Positions 6,758 through 13,373 of a stretch of 15,397 bases of DNA are shown here, one piece after another. The notes below the pieces were generated by a model. That model made no database searches. It was not told the origin of the DNA and saw nothing but the letters and a program-made list of their open reading frames with translations. Every line of letters starts with the position of its first letter. Position 1 is the stretch's first letter. The position numbers and the translations under genes were made by a program. Source of the stretch: a methanogenic archaeon (lineage in GTDB: Archaea > Thermoplasmatota > Thermoplasmata > Methanomassiliicoccales > Methanomethylophilaceae); contig CADAGG010000016.1 of assembly GCA_902787415.1 (NCBI GenBank), positions 1-15,397 of the forward strand, given 5' to 3'.

Positions 6758-8032
6758 ATGCAAGACATTCCGATTGAACTCAGGAAGACGGCCGGAGGGA
6801 TCCCCGTCATAACCGAGAGGATACCGTACAGCGCCAACGCCGGTTTCCTCGTGGCGGTCCGCACCGGGTCCCGCGACGAATACGACGGCATCTTCGGTCT
6901 CTCGCACCTGCTGGAACATACGGTTTTCAGGGAGACCAAGACCCGCACCTCCTTCGAGATGGCCAAGGAGATGGAGGGTGCCGGAGGGGAGCTCAACGCC
7001 TTCACCTCCAAGGAGATGACCGGCTACTACGGCATCACCCTCGGCTCCACCGCGGACGTCGCCATGAAACTGGTGGGCGACATCGTGGCCAACCCCCTCA
7101 TCAACGAGAAGGACACCGCCCTGGAGAAGGAGATCGTCCTCCAGGAGCTCAGCATGGTGAAGTCCGAGCCCGAGTCCTACATCCACGACCTCTTCGAGGA
7201 GAACCTGTGGGACGGCAACGAGCTCGGCTGGGACGAGGGTGGTTCCGAGGAGACCGTCAAGCCCCTGACCCACGAGGACCTCCGCAAGTACTACAACGAG
7301 AGGTACGGCAGGCCCAACCTGGCGGTCTTCGCCACCGGCAGCATCGACGAGGACAAGGTCCTCAGGTGGGCGGAGGAGACCTTCGACCCCATGGAGGCCC
7401 CCGTCGTCAACGAGAGGACCGCCCCCGCCACCCCCGGCGCCAAGTACACCTGCACCGAGCACAACTCCGAGCACATCAACATCGGCTTCGGATTCCCCCT
7501 CGGGAAGCTGGACGCGAGGGAGCGCGCGGTCGTCAAGCTCATGGGCGCGGTCATCGGTTCCGGTACCAGCTCCAGGCTCTTCCAGAACGTCCGCGAGAAG
7601 AACGCCCTGGTGTACGCCATCTACAACAACACCCACTGCTACAGCGACGCGGGTTACGTGTCCGCGTTCATGTCCTGCACCGGCAAGAACGTGATCAAGT
7701 CCCTGCAGGAGACCGCCAAGTCCTACAGCGAGTTCAAGAGGAACGGACTGGAGAAGGGCGAGTTGGAGAGGACCAAGAACCTCCTCAGCGGAGCGGTCGC
7801 GCGCAGCACCGAGACCACCGACAACAGGATCTACCGCATGTGCGTGGGCTACATGACCCACGGCTCGGTCAGCAGCACCGCGGAGTATCTCGACCTCATC
7901 AACTCGATCACCGAGGACGAGGTCATGGCCGCGGCGGAGAAGTACCTCACCGCGGACCGTCTCAACATCTCCGTGCTGGGACGCTGCGACAAGAAGGTCA
8001 AGGATTTCGAGGCTCAGTCGCTCGAGATCTGA
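6758..8032 (+). CDS. M16 family zinc metallopeptidase
   Basis: 424 aa, the length of a single M16B (processing-peptidase-like) subunit. The inverted zinc motif HLLEH is at 50-54 (His50, Glu53, His54). The third ligand Glu130, in EIVLQEL, lies 76 residues after His54, the normal spacing, so the catalytic site is complete. The second half has the M16 C-terminal domain pattern, with SRLFQNVREKNALVYAIY at about 269-286 supplying the usual Arg/Tyr substrate-binding residues. There is no signal peptide, so it is cytosolic. M16B enzymes usually work as homodimers or with an inactive sister subunit; no second M16 gene is in the window. Its 3' end overlaps the convergent hydrogenase-maturation protease gene by 19 bp. 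The natural substrate is unknown. Confidence 0.92.
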   Translation: MQDIPIELRKTAGGIPVITERIPYSANAGFLVAVRTGSRDEYDGIFGLSHLLEHTVFRETKTRTSFEMAKEMEGAGGELNAFTSKEMTGYYGITLGSTADVAMKLVGDIVANPLINEKDTALEKEIVLQELSMVKSEPESYIHDLFEENLWDGNELGWDEGGSEETVKPLTHEDLRKYYNERYGRPNLAVFATGSIDEDKVLRWAEETFDPMEAPVVNERTAPATPGAKYTCTEHNSEHINIGFGFPLGKLDARERAVVKLMGAVIGSGTSSRLFQNVREKNALVYAIYNNTHCYSDAGYVSAFMSCTGKNVIKSLQETAKSYSEFKRNGLEKGELERTKNLLSGAVARSTETTDNRIYRMCVGYMTHGSVSSTAEYLDLINSITEDEVMAAAEKYLTADRLNISVLGRCDKKVKDFEAQSLEI

Positions 8033-8514
8033 TCCCGGTCCTTCCTGAACTCGCTGAGGACATGGAGCACCGCCCTCTCGGCGGACTCCTGCCTCTCGGC
8101 CACCTCGGGGGTCAGCTCCTCGCTCATGGTGGCCATGTCCTTGATCTCCATGGCGACCAGCTTTATCTGGAGCGGCATGGAGTCGGGGTCCATCTCCCTC
8201 CCGATCTTGATGGCGGTGGCCACGTTGATGTCGTGGGAGGGGACGTCGTGGACGGTGTTCTCGAAGTCCGCCACGTCGAAAATCAGTATTGTGCCAGGAT
8301 CGTAATTCCAGGTCTGTATGGCGTCGACGATGACGGCGTAGCTGTATCCCCTGAGAAGAGGGAGCAGCTCCAGTCCGCCCACGGCCTCCTGGAAGCAGTC
8401 CACATCCTCCATGTTCATTTTCTGGATGTTCTCGGAGATGCGGAGACCGATGGAGTCATCGGTCATGATGGGGCTTCCGATGCCGATGACGGCGAGACGA
8501 CCGTTCAGTGCCAT
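8014..8514 (-). CDS. Hydrogenase maturation protease (HycI/HybD, peptidase M52 family)
   Basis: This endopeptidase removes the C-terminal extension of a [NiFe]-hydrogenase large subunit after nickel insertion. 166 aa, normal for the family. The family N-terminus IGIGSPIMTDDSIGLRI is at 10-26, DAIQTWNYDPGTI at 64-76, a SHD (93-95) in the usual SHG place, and MEIKDMATMSEELTPEV at about 120-136. Expected nickel-sensing ligands are Asp20, Asp64 and His94, all present. In a methanogen with cytosolic HdrBC the natural client would be the MvhA-type large subunit, though the gene is not in the window. It is divergent from the ModE/LysR-like regulator, with the 19-bp operator-like element between them, so it may be co-regulated with hdrCB. 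It overlaps the convergent M16 gene by 19 bp. Confidence 0.88.
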   Translation of the reverse strand: MALNGRLAVIGIGSPIMTDDSIGLRISENIQKMNMEDVDCFQEAVGGLELLPLLRGYSYAVIVDAIQTWNYDPGTILIFDVADFENTVHDVPSHDINVATAIKIGREMDPDSMPLQIKLVAMEIKDMATMSEELTPEVAERQESAERAVLHVLSEFRKDRDQISSD

Positions 8515-8537
8515 GCGCCGTCAATCACGGTATACGC

Positions 8538-8543
8538 TTTAAT
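8538..8543 (-). promoter_or_regulatory. Predicted TATA box of the maturation protease gene
   Basis: On the minus strand an ATTAAA element lies about 24-29 bp upstream of the ATG at 8514, correct for a leaderless archaeal mRNA. It is about 15 bp from the operator-like element at 8558-8576. Confidence 0.4.
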
Positions 8544-8557
8544 GGTTCTGGACACGG

Positions 8558-8576
8558 GGGTTTACCTCCGAGGCTA
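8558..8576. promoter_or_regulatory. Operator-like dyad element, copy A (regulator / maturation protease promoter)
   Basis: GGGTTTACCTCCGAGGCTA matches copy B in front of hdrC at 17 of 19 positions. It has imperfect dyad symmetry: TTTA-CCTC-C-GAGG-C-TAAA, an inverted repeat with one extra C in the right half. It ends about 4 bp before the TATA-like box of the regulator gene and lies in the divergent gap shared with the maturation protease gene. The position next to TATA/BRE suggests autoregulation. Confidence 0.6.
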
Positions 8577-8579
8577 AAG

Positions 8580-8588
8580 CCTTTTTAC
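8580..8588 (+). promoter_or_regulatory. Predicted TATA box of the ModE/LysR-like regulator
   Basis: CTTTTTACC lies about 23-31 bp before the ATG at 8611. No Shine-Dalgarno is present, so the transcript is probably leaderless. Confidence 0.4.
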
Positions 8589-8610
8589 CGATGAGCGGAT
8601 TCCGTGTACG

Positions 8611-9420
8611 ATGGATATCAGGGTCCGCACCGAGCAGATCATCAACGGACAGGTGATCACCAACCGCCAGCTGGAGGCGCTGTGGGCAGTCGGCAAGACC
8701 GGCAGCATGTCGGCCGCCGCCAAGATGCTGGGGGTCTCCGTGCCGGTGATCCACCGCTACGTGACCAACATCGAGGCCTCCGCGGGAGAGGCCGTGACCA
8801 AGTCCACCCCCATGGGCACCAAGCTCACCCCGGCGGGCAAGAGGATATCCGACATGTACATGGCGGCGGAGGCCCGCTGCCGCGACGACCGCGGTTTCAC
8901 GGTCGCCTGCAGTCCCGTGACCGAGGACCTGATGATGTCCGTCTTCTCGTCGCTGAAGATGACCGACGTCGAGCTCGTGGTCTCCGACGACCTCCACAAC
9001 ACGAGGATGATGACCGAGGGTCTCGCCGACATGATCCTCATCGACGACCCCCTCTATCTTTTCGACATCGACGAGTACGGGTACGACGCCGAGGAGATCG
9101 GATTCATGGGCATGGTCTACGTGGACAAGGGACCGTCCTTCATCCGCTACAAGTACGGGGCGCAGAGAGTGGCGTTCATGTTCCTCGACACCCTCGGCTA
9201 CGATTACACCGTGGACGCCGAGACCTACTCCCTCACCGAGATGCTCGGTTCGAACAAGAGCTTCTTCGTGGACGAGTTCCTGCTGACGAGGAAGGGAATC
9301 AAGCTCAAGAGCGCCGTGGACCCCAAGGTCCTGCGCCATGCGATCACCGCCATCTACCGGTCCGAAAACAAAACCGTGATGAAACTGGTCAATGCCCTCA
9401 AATCGAGGCATATCTCCTGA
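8611..9420 (+). CDS. ModE/LysR-type transcriptional regulator with periplasmic-binding-protein-like sensor half
   Basis: 269 aa. The N-terminal 18-80 is a LysR/ModE winged helix: RQLEALWAVGKTGSMSAAAK (19-38), then a recognition helix VSVPVIHRYVTNIE (42-55) and a wing TPMGTKLTPAGKRI (66-79). The rest (about 95-265) alternates strands and helices like a substrate-binding domain, e.g. VELVVSDDLHNTRMMTEGLADMIL (two pieces: about 120-131 and 132-143). It is not a molybdate (MOP) domain, so ModE function is unlikely. Only two cysteines occur, C90 and C100, at the linker/sensor boundary. The gene lies between hydrogenase maturation and hdrCB genes, and nearly identical 19-bp elements precede it and hdrC. 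I infer a local regulator of energy-metabolism genes; ligand and sign of regulation are unknown. Confidence 0.85.
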   Translation: MDIRVRTEQIINGQVITNRQLEALWAVGKTGSMSAAAKMLGVSVPVIHRYVTNIEASAGEAVTKSTPMGTKLTPAGKRISDMYMAAEARCRDDRGFTVACSPVTEDLMMSVFSSLKMTDVELVVSDDLHNTRMMTEGLADMILIDDPLYLFDIDEYGYDAEEIGFMGMVYVDKGPSFIRYKYGAQRVAFMFLDTLGYDYTVDAETYSLTEMLGSNKSFFVDEFLLTRKGIKLKSAVDPKVLRHAITAIYRSENKTVMKLVNALKSRHIS

Positions 9421-9442
9421 GTGCTGGCCATATCGAAATTTA

Positions 9443-9461
9443 GGGTTTACCTAAGAGGCTA
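9443..9461. promoter_or_regulatory. Operator-like dyad element, copy B (hdrC promoter)
   Basis: GGGTTTACCTAAGAGGCTA differs from copy A at only two adjacent central positions (AA for CC). The CCT-N3-AGG core and flanking TTTA / TATA are kept. It ends 27 bp upstream of the hdrC TATA box, outside the core promoter, which is a position more typical of activation than of direct occlusion. Confidence 0.6.
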
Positions 9462-9485
9462 TACCTACCCCCTGGCTACCGTGCT

Positions 9486-9523
9486 CCATTATATAGGGTG
9501 AAATTTTTCTGAGAGTCAGAGGT
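9486..9523 (+). promoter_or_regulatory. hdrC promoter (TATA box) and Shine-Dalgarno
   Basis: A clear TATA box ATTATATAG lies at 9488-9496 and predicts a transcript start near 9515-9520. The short leader contains GAGGT (9519-9523), 5 nt before the ATG at 9529. Unlike most first genes here, hdrC therefore has both a good TATA box and a Shine-Dalgarno, consistent with high expression. Confidence 0.65.
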
Positions 9524-9528
9524 ATATC

Positions 9529-10029
9529 ATGGAGTTCAAAAGCAACCCTGAATTCGAGCAGCAGCTCGCCGCCCTCGGCGGAGCTGACGCGAAACTCTGT
9601 TTCCAGTGCGGAACCTGTACTGCTGGATGCCCCTCCGGAAGGCGCACCTCCTACAAAGTTAGGAAGCTCGTCAGGATGGCACAGCTCGACATGAAAGACG
9701 AGATCATCAACAGCGAGGAGCTGTGGATGTGCAGCACCTGCTACACCTGCGTAGAGAGGTGCCCCCGCCGCGTCCCCATCGTCGACATCATCATCGCACT
9801 CAGGAACATGGCTGTCGCAGAGGGACACATCAAGCCCGCTCACAAGAAGACCGCAACCAACCTCTACCAGCTCGGTCACACCCTCGCCATCAACGACGAG
9901 ATCAAGGCAACCAGGGCAAAGCTCGGACTTTCCGAGGTTCCCCCCACCGTCATGGCAAACGAGAAAGCCATGGCTGACCTCAAGACCATTCTCGATGCCG
10001 TCAAGTTCGACGCCATCGTAAAGGAGTGA
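9529..10029 (+). CDS. hdrC: CoB--CoM heterodisulfide reductase iron-sulfur subunit C
   Basis: HdrC is the electron-carrying subunit of the HdrABC complex, which reduces CoM-S-S-CoB, the end product of methanogenesis; with MvhADG it couples this to ferredoxin reduction by electron bifurcation. 166 aa, soluble, usual length. Two [4Fe-4S] sites are fully intact: C24, C27, C30, C34 and C68, C71, C74, C78. The start is fixed by GAGGT five bases upstream and by the family N-terminus. hdrB follows 6 nt downstream in the same operon; no hdrA is adjacent. The operator-like element at 9443-9461 and a strong TATA box precede it. Confidence 0.97.
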   Translation: MEFKSNPEFEQQLAALGGADAKLCFQCGTCTAGCPSGRRTSYKVRKLVRMAQLDMKDEIINSEELWMCSTCYTCVERCPRRVPIVDIIIALRNMAVAEGHIKPAHKKTATNLYQLGHTLAINDEIKATRAKLGLSEVPPTVMANEKAMADLKTILDAVKFDAIVKE

Positions 10030-10035
10030 TATTCA

Positions 10036-10881
10036 ATGGCAAAATACGCATTCTTCCTCGGCTGTGTCGCACCCCTCAGGTACCCCGGTATCGAGAAATC
10101 CACCCGCGTCGTCTTTGACAAGCTCGGAGTCGAGCTCGTCGACCTCACCGATGCCTCCTGCTGCCCCGCACCCGGAGTCATCAAAGCATTCTCCAAGCTC
10201 ACCTGGCTCGCAGCCGCAGCAAGGAACCTCGCCCTCGCAGAGAAGATGGGCCTCCCCATCATGACCATCTGCAACGGATGCTACGGATCCCTGTTCGAGG
10301 CAGCCCACGAGCTCAACAACAACGCTGACGAGCTCGCCAAGGTCAACGAGATCCTCGCCAAGGTCGGAATGAAGTACAACGGTACCACCAAGGTCTACCA
10401 CTTCGCAGAGGTCCTCGCAAACGAGGTCGGCGTCGAGAAGATCAAGGCAGCATTCACCAAGCCCCTCGCATACAAGATCGCAGTCTTCTACGGATGCCAC
10501 TTCCTGAAGCCCACCGACATCAAGGGACTTGACGACGCAGAGGCACCCCACATCCTCGAGGACCTCGTTGAGGCCACCGGATGCCAGGCAATGCCCAGGA
10601 AGCAGCCCATGCTCTGCTGCGGATCCGGAGGAGGTCTCAAGGCCGCTTTCGGTGACGTCACCAAGGAGTTCACCCTGACCAACCTCGAGAACATGAAGGC
10701 CTCCGAGGCCCAGTTCATCGTCGACGTCTGCCCCTTCTGCCACCTGCAGTTCGACACCGCACAGAAGGAGCTCGGCTTCGAGATCCCCGTTCTCCACCTC
10801 GCACAGCTCTACGGAATCGCAATGGGAATGACCGAGGAAGAACTCGGACTCGCTCTCCACAAGGTTCCCGTCAAGCTCTGA
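10036..10881 (+). CDS. hdrB: CoB--CoM heterodisulfide reductase subunit B
   Basis: This is the catalytic subunit that cleaves the CoM-S-S-CoB disulfide at two noncubane [4Fe-4S] clusters. 281 aa. Both CCG domains match the consensus exactly: C10-X31-C42C43-X35-C79xxC82 and C154-X39-C194C195-X36-C232xxC235. No cysteine ligand is missing. The ATG at 10036 is preceded by GGAGTGAT, which contains the hdrC stop codon, so translation is probably coupled to hdrC. Like HdrC it has no membrane segment, so this is the cytosolic HdrABC type and not HdrDE. It ends 22 bp before a GC-rich hairpin. Confidence 0.97.
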   Translation: MAKYAFFLGCVAPLRYPGIEKSTRVVFDKLGVELVDLTDASCCPAPGVIKAFSKLTWLAAAARNLALAEKMGLPIMTICNGCYGSLFEAAHELNNNADELAKVNEILAKVGMKYNGTTKVYHFAEVLANEVGVEKIKAAFTKPLAYKIAVFYGCHFLKPTDIKGLDDAEAPHILEDLVEATGCQAMPRKQPMLCCGSGGGLKAAFGDVTKEFTLTNLENMKASEAQFIVDVCPFCHLQFDTAQKELGFEIPVLHLAQLYGIAMGMTEEELGLALHKVPVKL

Positions 10882-13264: not shown

Positions 13265-13373
13265 GTCGGGGTGGCTCAGCCTGGTAGAGCGTCGGACTCA
13301 TAGGGTTCAGGTTAAAACTGACCTCACCAGGGAAATCCGAAGGCCGAGGGTTCGAACCCCTCTCCCGACACCA
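13265..13373 (+). tRNA. tRNA-Met (CAT), elongator type, with a 32-nt intron at 37/38; CCA encoded
   Basis: Acceptor GTCGGGG (13265-13271) pairs with TCCCGAC (13363-13369), with one G-U pair; the discriminator is A13370 and CCA is at 13371-13373. D stem is GCTC/GAGC; anticodon stem TCGGA (13292-13296) pairs with TCCGA (13336-13340). Anticodon CAT is at 13299-13301. T stem GAGGG/CCCTC encloses TTCGAAC. The intron at 13303-13334 contains a TCAG/CTGA hairpin and ends with an A-rich bulge, fitting a relaxed bulge-helix-bulge site. G1-C72 and the GGACTCATAA context favour elongator Met over initiator Met. The CAT anticodon also leaves tRNA-Ile2 possible, which the overall sequence fits less well. 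Confidence 0.92.
13303..13334 (+). other. tRNA intron (archaeal splicing-endonuclease type)
   Basis: 32 nt inserted after A37. Removing it restores a 7-nt anticodon loop CTCATAA. Three A residues at 13333-13335 span the 3' splice site as the expected bulge, and C32-T33-C34 can pair with GGG at 13330-13332. Confidence 0.8.

Follow-up and report, generated by a model that had tools for sequence, protein, structure and literature searches.

Two near-identical elements flanking a LysR-type regulator gene upstream of hdrCB are one end of a larger pattern, a symmetric 22-bp dyad which precedes hdrC across the order Methanomassiliicoccales and, in many Methanomethylophilaceae, also precedes the unlinked hdrA-mvhDGA genes. 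In the explanation favored here, the dyads are operators for the LysR-type protein whose gene lies between the two elements, and this protein would act on hdrCB, often on hdrA-mvhDGA and, in some lineages, on its own promoter; from the comparison of genomes, a probability of about 0.77 is given to this explanation as a whole. Comparative evidence establishes the sites, their conservation, their spacing at hdrC and hdrA, and a covariation between protein and DNA, and it is very probable on this evidence that the LysR-type regulator reads the dyad.

The window, that is, the whole stretch of 15,397 nucleotides analyzed from a Methanomethylophilaceae genome, contains exact matches to the 19-bp element GGGTTTACCTNNGAGGCTA at 8558-8576 and 9443-9461, with 17 of the 19 bases common to both copies. 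The first copy lies in the gap at 8515-8610, between the gene for a HycI-type hydrogenase maturation protease (8014-8514, minus strand; PF01750 and TIGR00072 above cut-off) and the regulator gene (8611-9420, plus strand). The second lies in the gap at 9421-9528, between the regulator gene and hdrC, for CoB-CoM heterodisulfide reductase subunit C (9529-10029, plus strand; TIGR03290, 196.9 bits against a cut-off of 160), which is followed by hdrB, for subunit B (10036-10881, plus strand; TIGR03288, 379.7 bits against 345; both cut-offs are those of NCBIfam equivalogs). No third place in the window was within three mismatches of the element, the pair had a chance expectation of 0.01, and it appeared in none of 200 shuffles. 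The same two places were the only ones with up to three mismatches in the genome of origin (G000, 1.23 Mb, 82.6% complete), where a reversed control pattern gave one. The near-identical pair in short gaps before the regulator and hdrC, as described in the initial annotation, was thus confirmed, and so was the distance of 27 bp from the end of the element to the TATA box of hdrC. The dyad symmetry proposed there also held, but not its parse with an N3 center, since the comparison within the family showed an even dyad with an N6 center. Read in this way, the sites are GGTTTACC-TCCGAG-GCTAAAGC before the regulator gene (8559-8580, score 9.9), a putative autoregulatory dyad with comparable sites in 28 of 133 loci, and GGTTTACC-TAAGAG-GCTATACC before hdrC (9444-9465, score 11.9), which is conserved across the order; both are diverged forms of GTATTACC-N6-GGTAATAC, as in genus g1. 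The TATA-like box of hdrC, TTATATAG, at 9489-9496 on the plus strand, starts 34 bp from the dyad center, as in most relatives. The sole Rfam match in the window was a tRNA at 13265-13370, whose span of 106 bases is above the usual length and suggestive of an intron.

The symmetric dyad model of 22 bp was trained on 87 hdrC gaps of the family Methanomethylophilaceae, and the consensus before hdrC was GTATTACC-N6-GGTAATAC. When mononucleotide shuffles of the hdrC gaps were scored, 0.2% reached 12 and the 99th percentile was 7.2, a value exceeded by 127 of 129 hdrC gaps (not by L126, with 5.9, or L131, with 7.2). All 90 family gaps scored at least 7.4 and 86 at least 12, figures that are partly circular because 87 of these gaps had trained the model; among the gaps of other families, all outside the training set, 31 of 39 scored at least 12 and the remaining eight between 5.9 and 11.0 (for example, CATTTACCAAAAAAGGTAAATG). 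The distance from the dyad center to the first TATA-like box was 31-35 bp in the 87 family gaps (87/87), mostly 34 bp, which together with the scores supports the earlier claim of a conserved site before hdrC. Conservation of both positions in related genomes, the check that the initial annotation had proposed, was found at hdrC but failed at the regulator promoter in most genera. The two halves of the dyad covaried beyond column composition at pairs 2/21, 3/20, 5/18, 6/17, 7/16 and 9/14, with z of about 6 at 3/20, 5/18 and 7/16 (122 unique sites, kinship ignored), and the central pair 11/12 was less symmetric than in shuffles. A pattern fitted to 12 genomes of other families found the hdrC site in nine of them, plus three other places. 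At one locus (L152, G135), tandem dyads 89 bp apart, at 2785 and 2874 on the regulator strand, were observed before hdrC. The hdrC sites of genus g7 (L081, L083 and L087) have half-sites of approximately TTGCTGT..ACAGCAA, which form a nearly perfect dyad of different sequence, and the recognition helix of their regulators contains SVAFRH or SVAYRH; this combination is possibly a second change of specificity.

Searches detected the regulator in 97 of the 102 family genomes and 137 of the 147 in the order. Directly 3' of it lies hdrC, at 90 of the 93 loci from the family and at 39 of the 40 from other families. Overall, hdrCB follows the regulator in 129 of 133 loci, and at the four loci without hdrC (L056, L057, L085 and L137) the contig ends inside the regulator gene or within about 160 nt. 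Upstream, hycI and a gene for an M16 peptidase are found in much of the order, and further off in several genera. A sample of 389 genomes from the phylum yielded 60 regulator matches, 57 of them inside Methanomassiliicoccales. The regulator-hdrC-hdrB order was kept in all three genomes outside it (G365, G179 and G154), where the dyad before hdrC scored 17.4, 9.0 and 15.4, respectively, each time the best of its 7.6-8.8 kb. No mcrA was detected in these three genomes (97, 81 and 93% complete); because archaea without detected mcrA keep the regulator, the site and hdrCB, the regulator may be older than methanogenesis or independent of it. A scan of contigs gave six named loci, with the dyad just 3' of the regulator in all six. 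In G179, hdrA lies divergently beside the regulator and hdrCB downstream (L325, 570-5745), so that Hdr genes occupy both sides of the regulator.

The regulator, of 269 aa, comprises an N-terminal winged HTH and a compact C-terminal effector-binding domain. Pfam HTH_1 was matched with an E value of 1.2e-10 (41.6 bits against a cut-off of 26.6) and was the only domain recognized by sequence in all of the 56 homologues (56/56, E of 0.01 or better); LysR_substrate (PF03466) matched one of the 56, with an E value of 0.0092. The structure model (pLDDT 93.6) gave whole-length matches to the LysR-type regulators CbnR, CcmR and OxyR, while for its C-terminal domain the list held effector domains from YeiE, OxyR and CysB and, slightly lower, binding proteins of the ModA type, indicating a predicted two-lobed effector-binding domain of the LysR type. 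Helix 44-58, with R49 inside, is the predicted recognition helix. The invariant positions among the 56 homologues include D127, D145-D146-P147, G183, Q185-R186, S217 and F219. No cysteine is invariant across these homologues, so an OxyR-like thiol switch is unlikely and a cysteine redox switch was rejected. The C-terminal domain likely has a small-molecule ligand; an anion or a metabolite of sulfur or redox chemistry is plausible. Regulator homologues are labelled 'ModE-like' in some sources, and the gene had been annotated as 'ModE/LysR-like'. The winged HTH of ModE is related, and the defining part of ModE is a C-terminal molybdate-binding Mop/TOBE domain. The regulator and LysR parts of that description stood, since the predicted fold is that of a whole LysR-type regulator, whereas the ModE assignment was rejected: the ModE model (TIGR00637) gave 22.4 bits against a cut-off of 98.5, the C-terminal domain has the predicted LysR effector fold, and Mop/TOBE was not one of the 21 Pfam families with a match in at least one of the 56 homologues. 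The fold matches listed included no ModE regulator, though one could stand outside these lists. At one locus (L015, G017:C7) an in-frame TAG stands in the regulator gene, immediately ahead of the EGLAD motif, and may be an error; TAG can code for pyrrolysine in Methanomassiliicoccales.

Apart from sites at hdrC and the regulator, which were the majority, a consensus scan of the 102 family genomes at one mismatch returned 14 other places, six of them directly upstream of an hdrA-like gene. No shared neighbor was seen for the remaining eight, one of which (L172 of G076) scored 27.0. The hdrA gene was located in 127 of the 147 genomes of the order. Among the family hdrA upstream regions, 38 of 80 scored at least 12, and in every one of the 38 the site lay 200-255 nt ahead of the codons for ALVIGGG; in 67 of those 80 loci, 31 reached 12, against 1.1% of dinucleotide shuffles. 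Sites before hdrA, which the initial annotation had suggested looking for by whole-genome scanning, were therefore found, in nine of the 13 genera of the family: dyads of at least 12 were present in g9 (17/24), g11 (3/3), g14 (5/5), g6 (3/3) and g2 (1/1), and more sparsely in g12 (2/5), g5 (1/3), g8 (4/15) and g1 (2/11). The single g3 locus reached 8 but not 12, nothing reached 8 in the hdrA upstream regions of g4, g7 and g10, and none of the 44 regions from f5 and f6 reached 10. In the window's own genome no dyad was recognizable upstream of hdrA (score 0.6), and recognizable dyads were present only at hdrCB and the regulator.

In the four genomes checked (G000, G087, G049 and G135), hdrA is followed by mvhD, mvhG and mvhA. 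The mvhDGA genes of G000 matched Pfam FlpD, Oxidored_q6 and NiFeSe_Hases above their cut-offs, and the best NCBIfam models for its hdrA-mvhDGA (HdrA2, VhuD, VhuG and VhuA) were matched below theirs. The available text of PMC4153887 gives the hdrA-mvhDGA arrangement in three named genomes and proposes a bifurcating HdrABC-MvhADG complex. With dyads at hdrCB and hdrA-mvhDGA, both operons of this complex would share one operator where both sites exist. The distance from the dyad to a TATA-like box at hdrA was 122-126 bp in 29 of 60 cases, and in 18 no such box was recognized. A CTGG[CGA] box was conserved in 73 of the 80 regions upstream of hdrA in the family (for example, L355 and L216), at 35-36 bp from the dyad center in 55 of 60, and is perhaps the site of a partner or second factor.

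In G086, G087 and G077, the places at the regulator, hdrC and hdrA were the only ones in the genome within two mismatches of the consensus; the remaining genomes of the 13 scanned in this way had further places, roughly as many as the reversed control gave, and the four places in G101 all fell outside the regulator, hdrC and hdrA promoters. Weak extra sites cannot be judged, because the reversed control yields about as many places at two mismatches.

The link between the protein and the dyad comes from residue 49 and the base pair at positions 7 and 16. The hdrC sites had C at 7 and G at 16 in 72 of 89 cases with Arg49, against five of 38 with Lys and none of two with Asn. At the unlinked hdrA sites, C at position 7 accompanied Arg in 21 of 26 cases and other residues in three of 28 (Fisher p = 2.5e-7, kinship ignored), and at the regulator's own site it was found in six of eight genomes with Arg and four of 20 with Lys. 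Within g9, three genomes have Arg49, all three with C-G at hdrC, and in the two that have an hdrA site this site also carries C-G; one of the Arg49 genomes with C-G at hdrA (G062) carries T-G at its own regulator promoter. When eight independent contrasts were taken on the HdrC+HdrB tree, a mean of 5.8 agreed, 0.3 disagreed and 1.9 tied (median two-sided p = 0.06). The covariation at both hdrC and hdrA ties the protein to the dyad, and residue 49 appears to set dyad specificity; this link is good and not conclusive, because two Lys genomes of f6b (family f6) keep C-G at 7/16 and only eight contrasts were available.

The copy before the regulator had a different distribution. Upstream regions of the regulator scored at least 12 in 28 of 133 loci (g9, 21/30; g11, 3/3; g1, 4/14; none elsewhere), and the window's own copy, with 9.9, is outside those 28. 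This patchy distribution indicates that the dyad at the regulator promoter is lineage-specific, which fits autoregulation; the autoregulation claimed in the initial annotation is thus plausible, but not as a general feature. In g9, 20 of the 21 dyads are centered 18-22 bp upstream of the regulator's start codon, close enough to it to favor autorepression.

A regulon that joined heterodisulfide reduction to hydrogenase maturation through hycI had also been proposed, and one regulon of hdrCB and hycI, served by the shared divergent gap, is an improbable alternative. The M16 peptidase gene, hycI, the regulator gene and hdrCB are neighbors in much of the order and the window site lies inside the gap shared by hycI and the regulator, as such a regulon would have it, and hycI upstream regions nearer than 300 nt to the regulator scored at least 12 in 22 of 89 cases; those sites, however, are explicable by autoregulation, and where hycI lay at least 300 nt from the regulator none of 30 upstream regions had a site scoring at least 10. 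Control of hycI was therefore not upheld and hycI was rejected as a conserved target, whereas a joint regulon with hydrogenase survives in another form, through the dyad upstream of hdrA, which heads hdrA-mvhDGA, in the nine genera.

According to the preferred explanation, a dimer of the regulator would probably bind each site, GTATTAYC-N6-GRTAATAC, with forms such as TTTACC-N6-GCTAAA in the window's genus. Its conserved job would be to control hdrCB through the dyad immediately ahead of the TATA box. Judging from the position of archaeal TATA boxes relative to the start, the hdrC dyad would have its center some 60-65 bp ahead of the expected start and would leave BRE, TATA and the start free, making activation more likely than repression. 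In the nine genera, the site at hdrA-mvhDGA would co-regulate the electron-bifurcating HdrABC-MvhADG in trans, and in some genera, including that of the window, the copy near the regulator's own promoter or start would probably serve autorepression. The same regulator and sites could instead work with the opposite sign, as a repressor at hdrC that an effector releases when heterodisulfide reductase is needed. Such repression has a precedent in HrsM, a methanogen LysR-type protein that represses hydrogenase operons according to the available text of PMC11097638, and the g9 regulator's own site is mostly in a repressor-like position; but the location of the hdrC dyad upstream of the TATA-like box, at a nearly fixed 31-35 bp, fits activation better, and the hdrA dyad lies further upstream still of any TATA-like box recognized there, which makes repression at hdrC rather unlikely.

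It is considerably less likely that another transcription factor binds the dyads and that the LysR gene is a bystander. Every genome must hold other HTH proteins, yet residue 49 changes together with the site at both hdrC and hdrA, which are unlinked, the regulator gene and the dyad stay paired outside the order, and in six of the 11 genomes checked no HTH_1 protein besides the regulator was found, the other five having one more each. The least probable alternative, and a very unlikely one, was that the repeat ahead of hdrC works at the RNA level, as the hairpin of a terminator or attenuator behind the regulator gene. The dyad does follow the regulator stop codon and has a potential 8-bp stem with a 6-nt loop; against this, it also occurs ahead of hdrA and, in certain genera, ahead of the regulator gene, it lies upstream of a TATA-like box, C-A cells at pair 7/16 (n = 12) outnumber T-G wobble cells (n = 6), and no terminator-like site was found in the window between 8400 and 9600. 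The RNA explanation was rejected on the cells of pair 7/16 and the missing terminator-like site.

Going beyond operator binding, there is perhaps an even chance that the regulator is dedicated to HdrABC-MvhADG, with a very small regulon that covers both unlinked operons in many Methanomethylophilaceae, often as the only LysR-type protein of the cell, with a code between residue 49 and positions 7/16 that can be read from genomes, an origin older than or independent of methanogenesis, and a second factor at the CTGG box of hdrA. Methanogenesis ends with heterodisulfide reduction, and the regulator sits beside the genes for this step; the coupling through HdrABC-MvhADG is proposed as a main energy-coupling point for Methanomassiliicoccales in the available text of PMC4153887. 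The retention of regulator, site and hdrCB outside the order points to such control of Hdr in archaea without mcrA as well. Since the finding comes down to one regulator, its 22-bp dyad, a pair of target operons and a putative specificity residue, the control of heterodisulfide reduction becomes testable with a single purified protein.

The regulator belongs to the LysR type, and its regulon is undescribed as far as the available text of the open-licence literature searched goes: no description was found of a regulator of hdrCB, nor a paper on the present regulator or its site. Among LysR-type proteins with anion or redox effectors, YeiE, OxyR and CysB have about 10-15% identity to it. Its dyad has a symmetric T and A separated by 12 bases (T-N12-A), unlike the textbook LysR box, T-N11-A. 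The closest described system, judging from the available text of the reports, is HrsM, the LysR-type repressor of selenium-free hydrogenases in Methanococcus, which binds the frc-vhc intergenic region, responds to selenium and has orthologues reported only in SelD-containing organisms; without selenium, transcript levels for the Cys isoforms of Vhc and HdrA increase (PMC11097638, PMC5322559). Both are LysR-type regulators of methanogens, and HrsM acts on hydrogenase genes. HrsM is selenium-responsive, whereas no link to selenium was seen for the present regulator, which differs further, by description rather than by sequence, in lying beside hdrCB with a defined dyad there and often at hdrA-mvhDGA.
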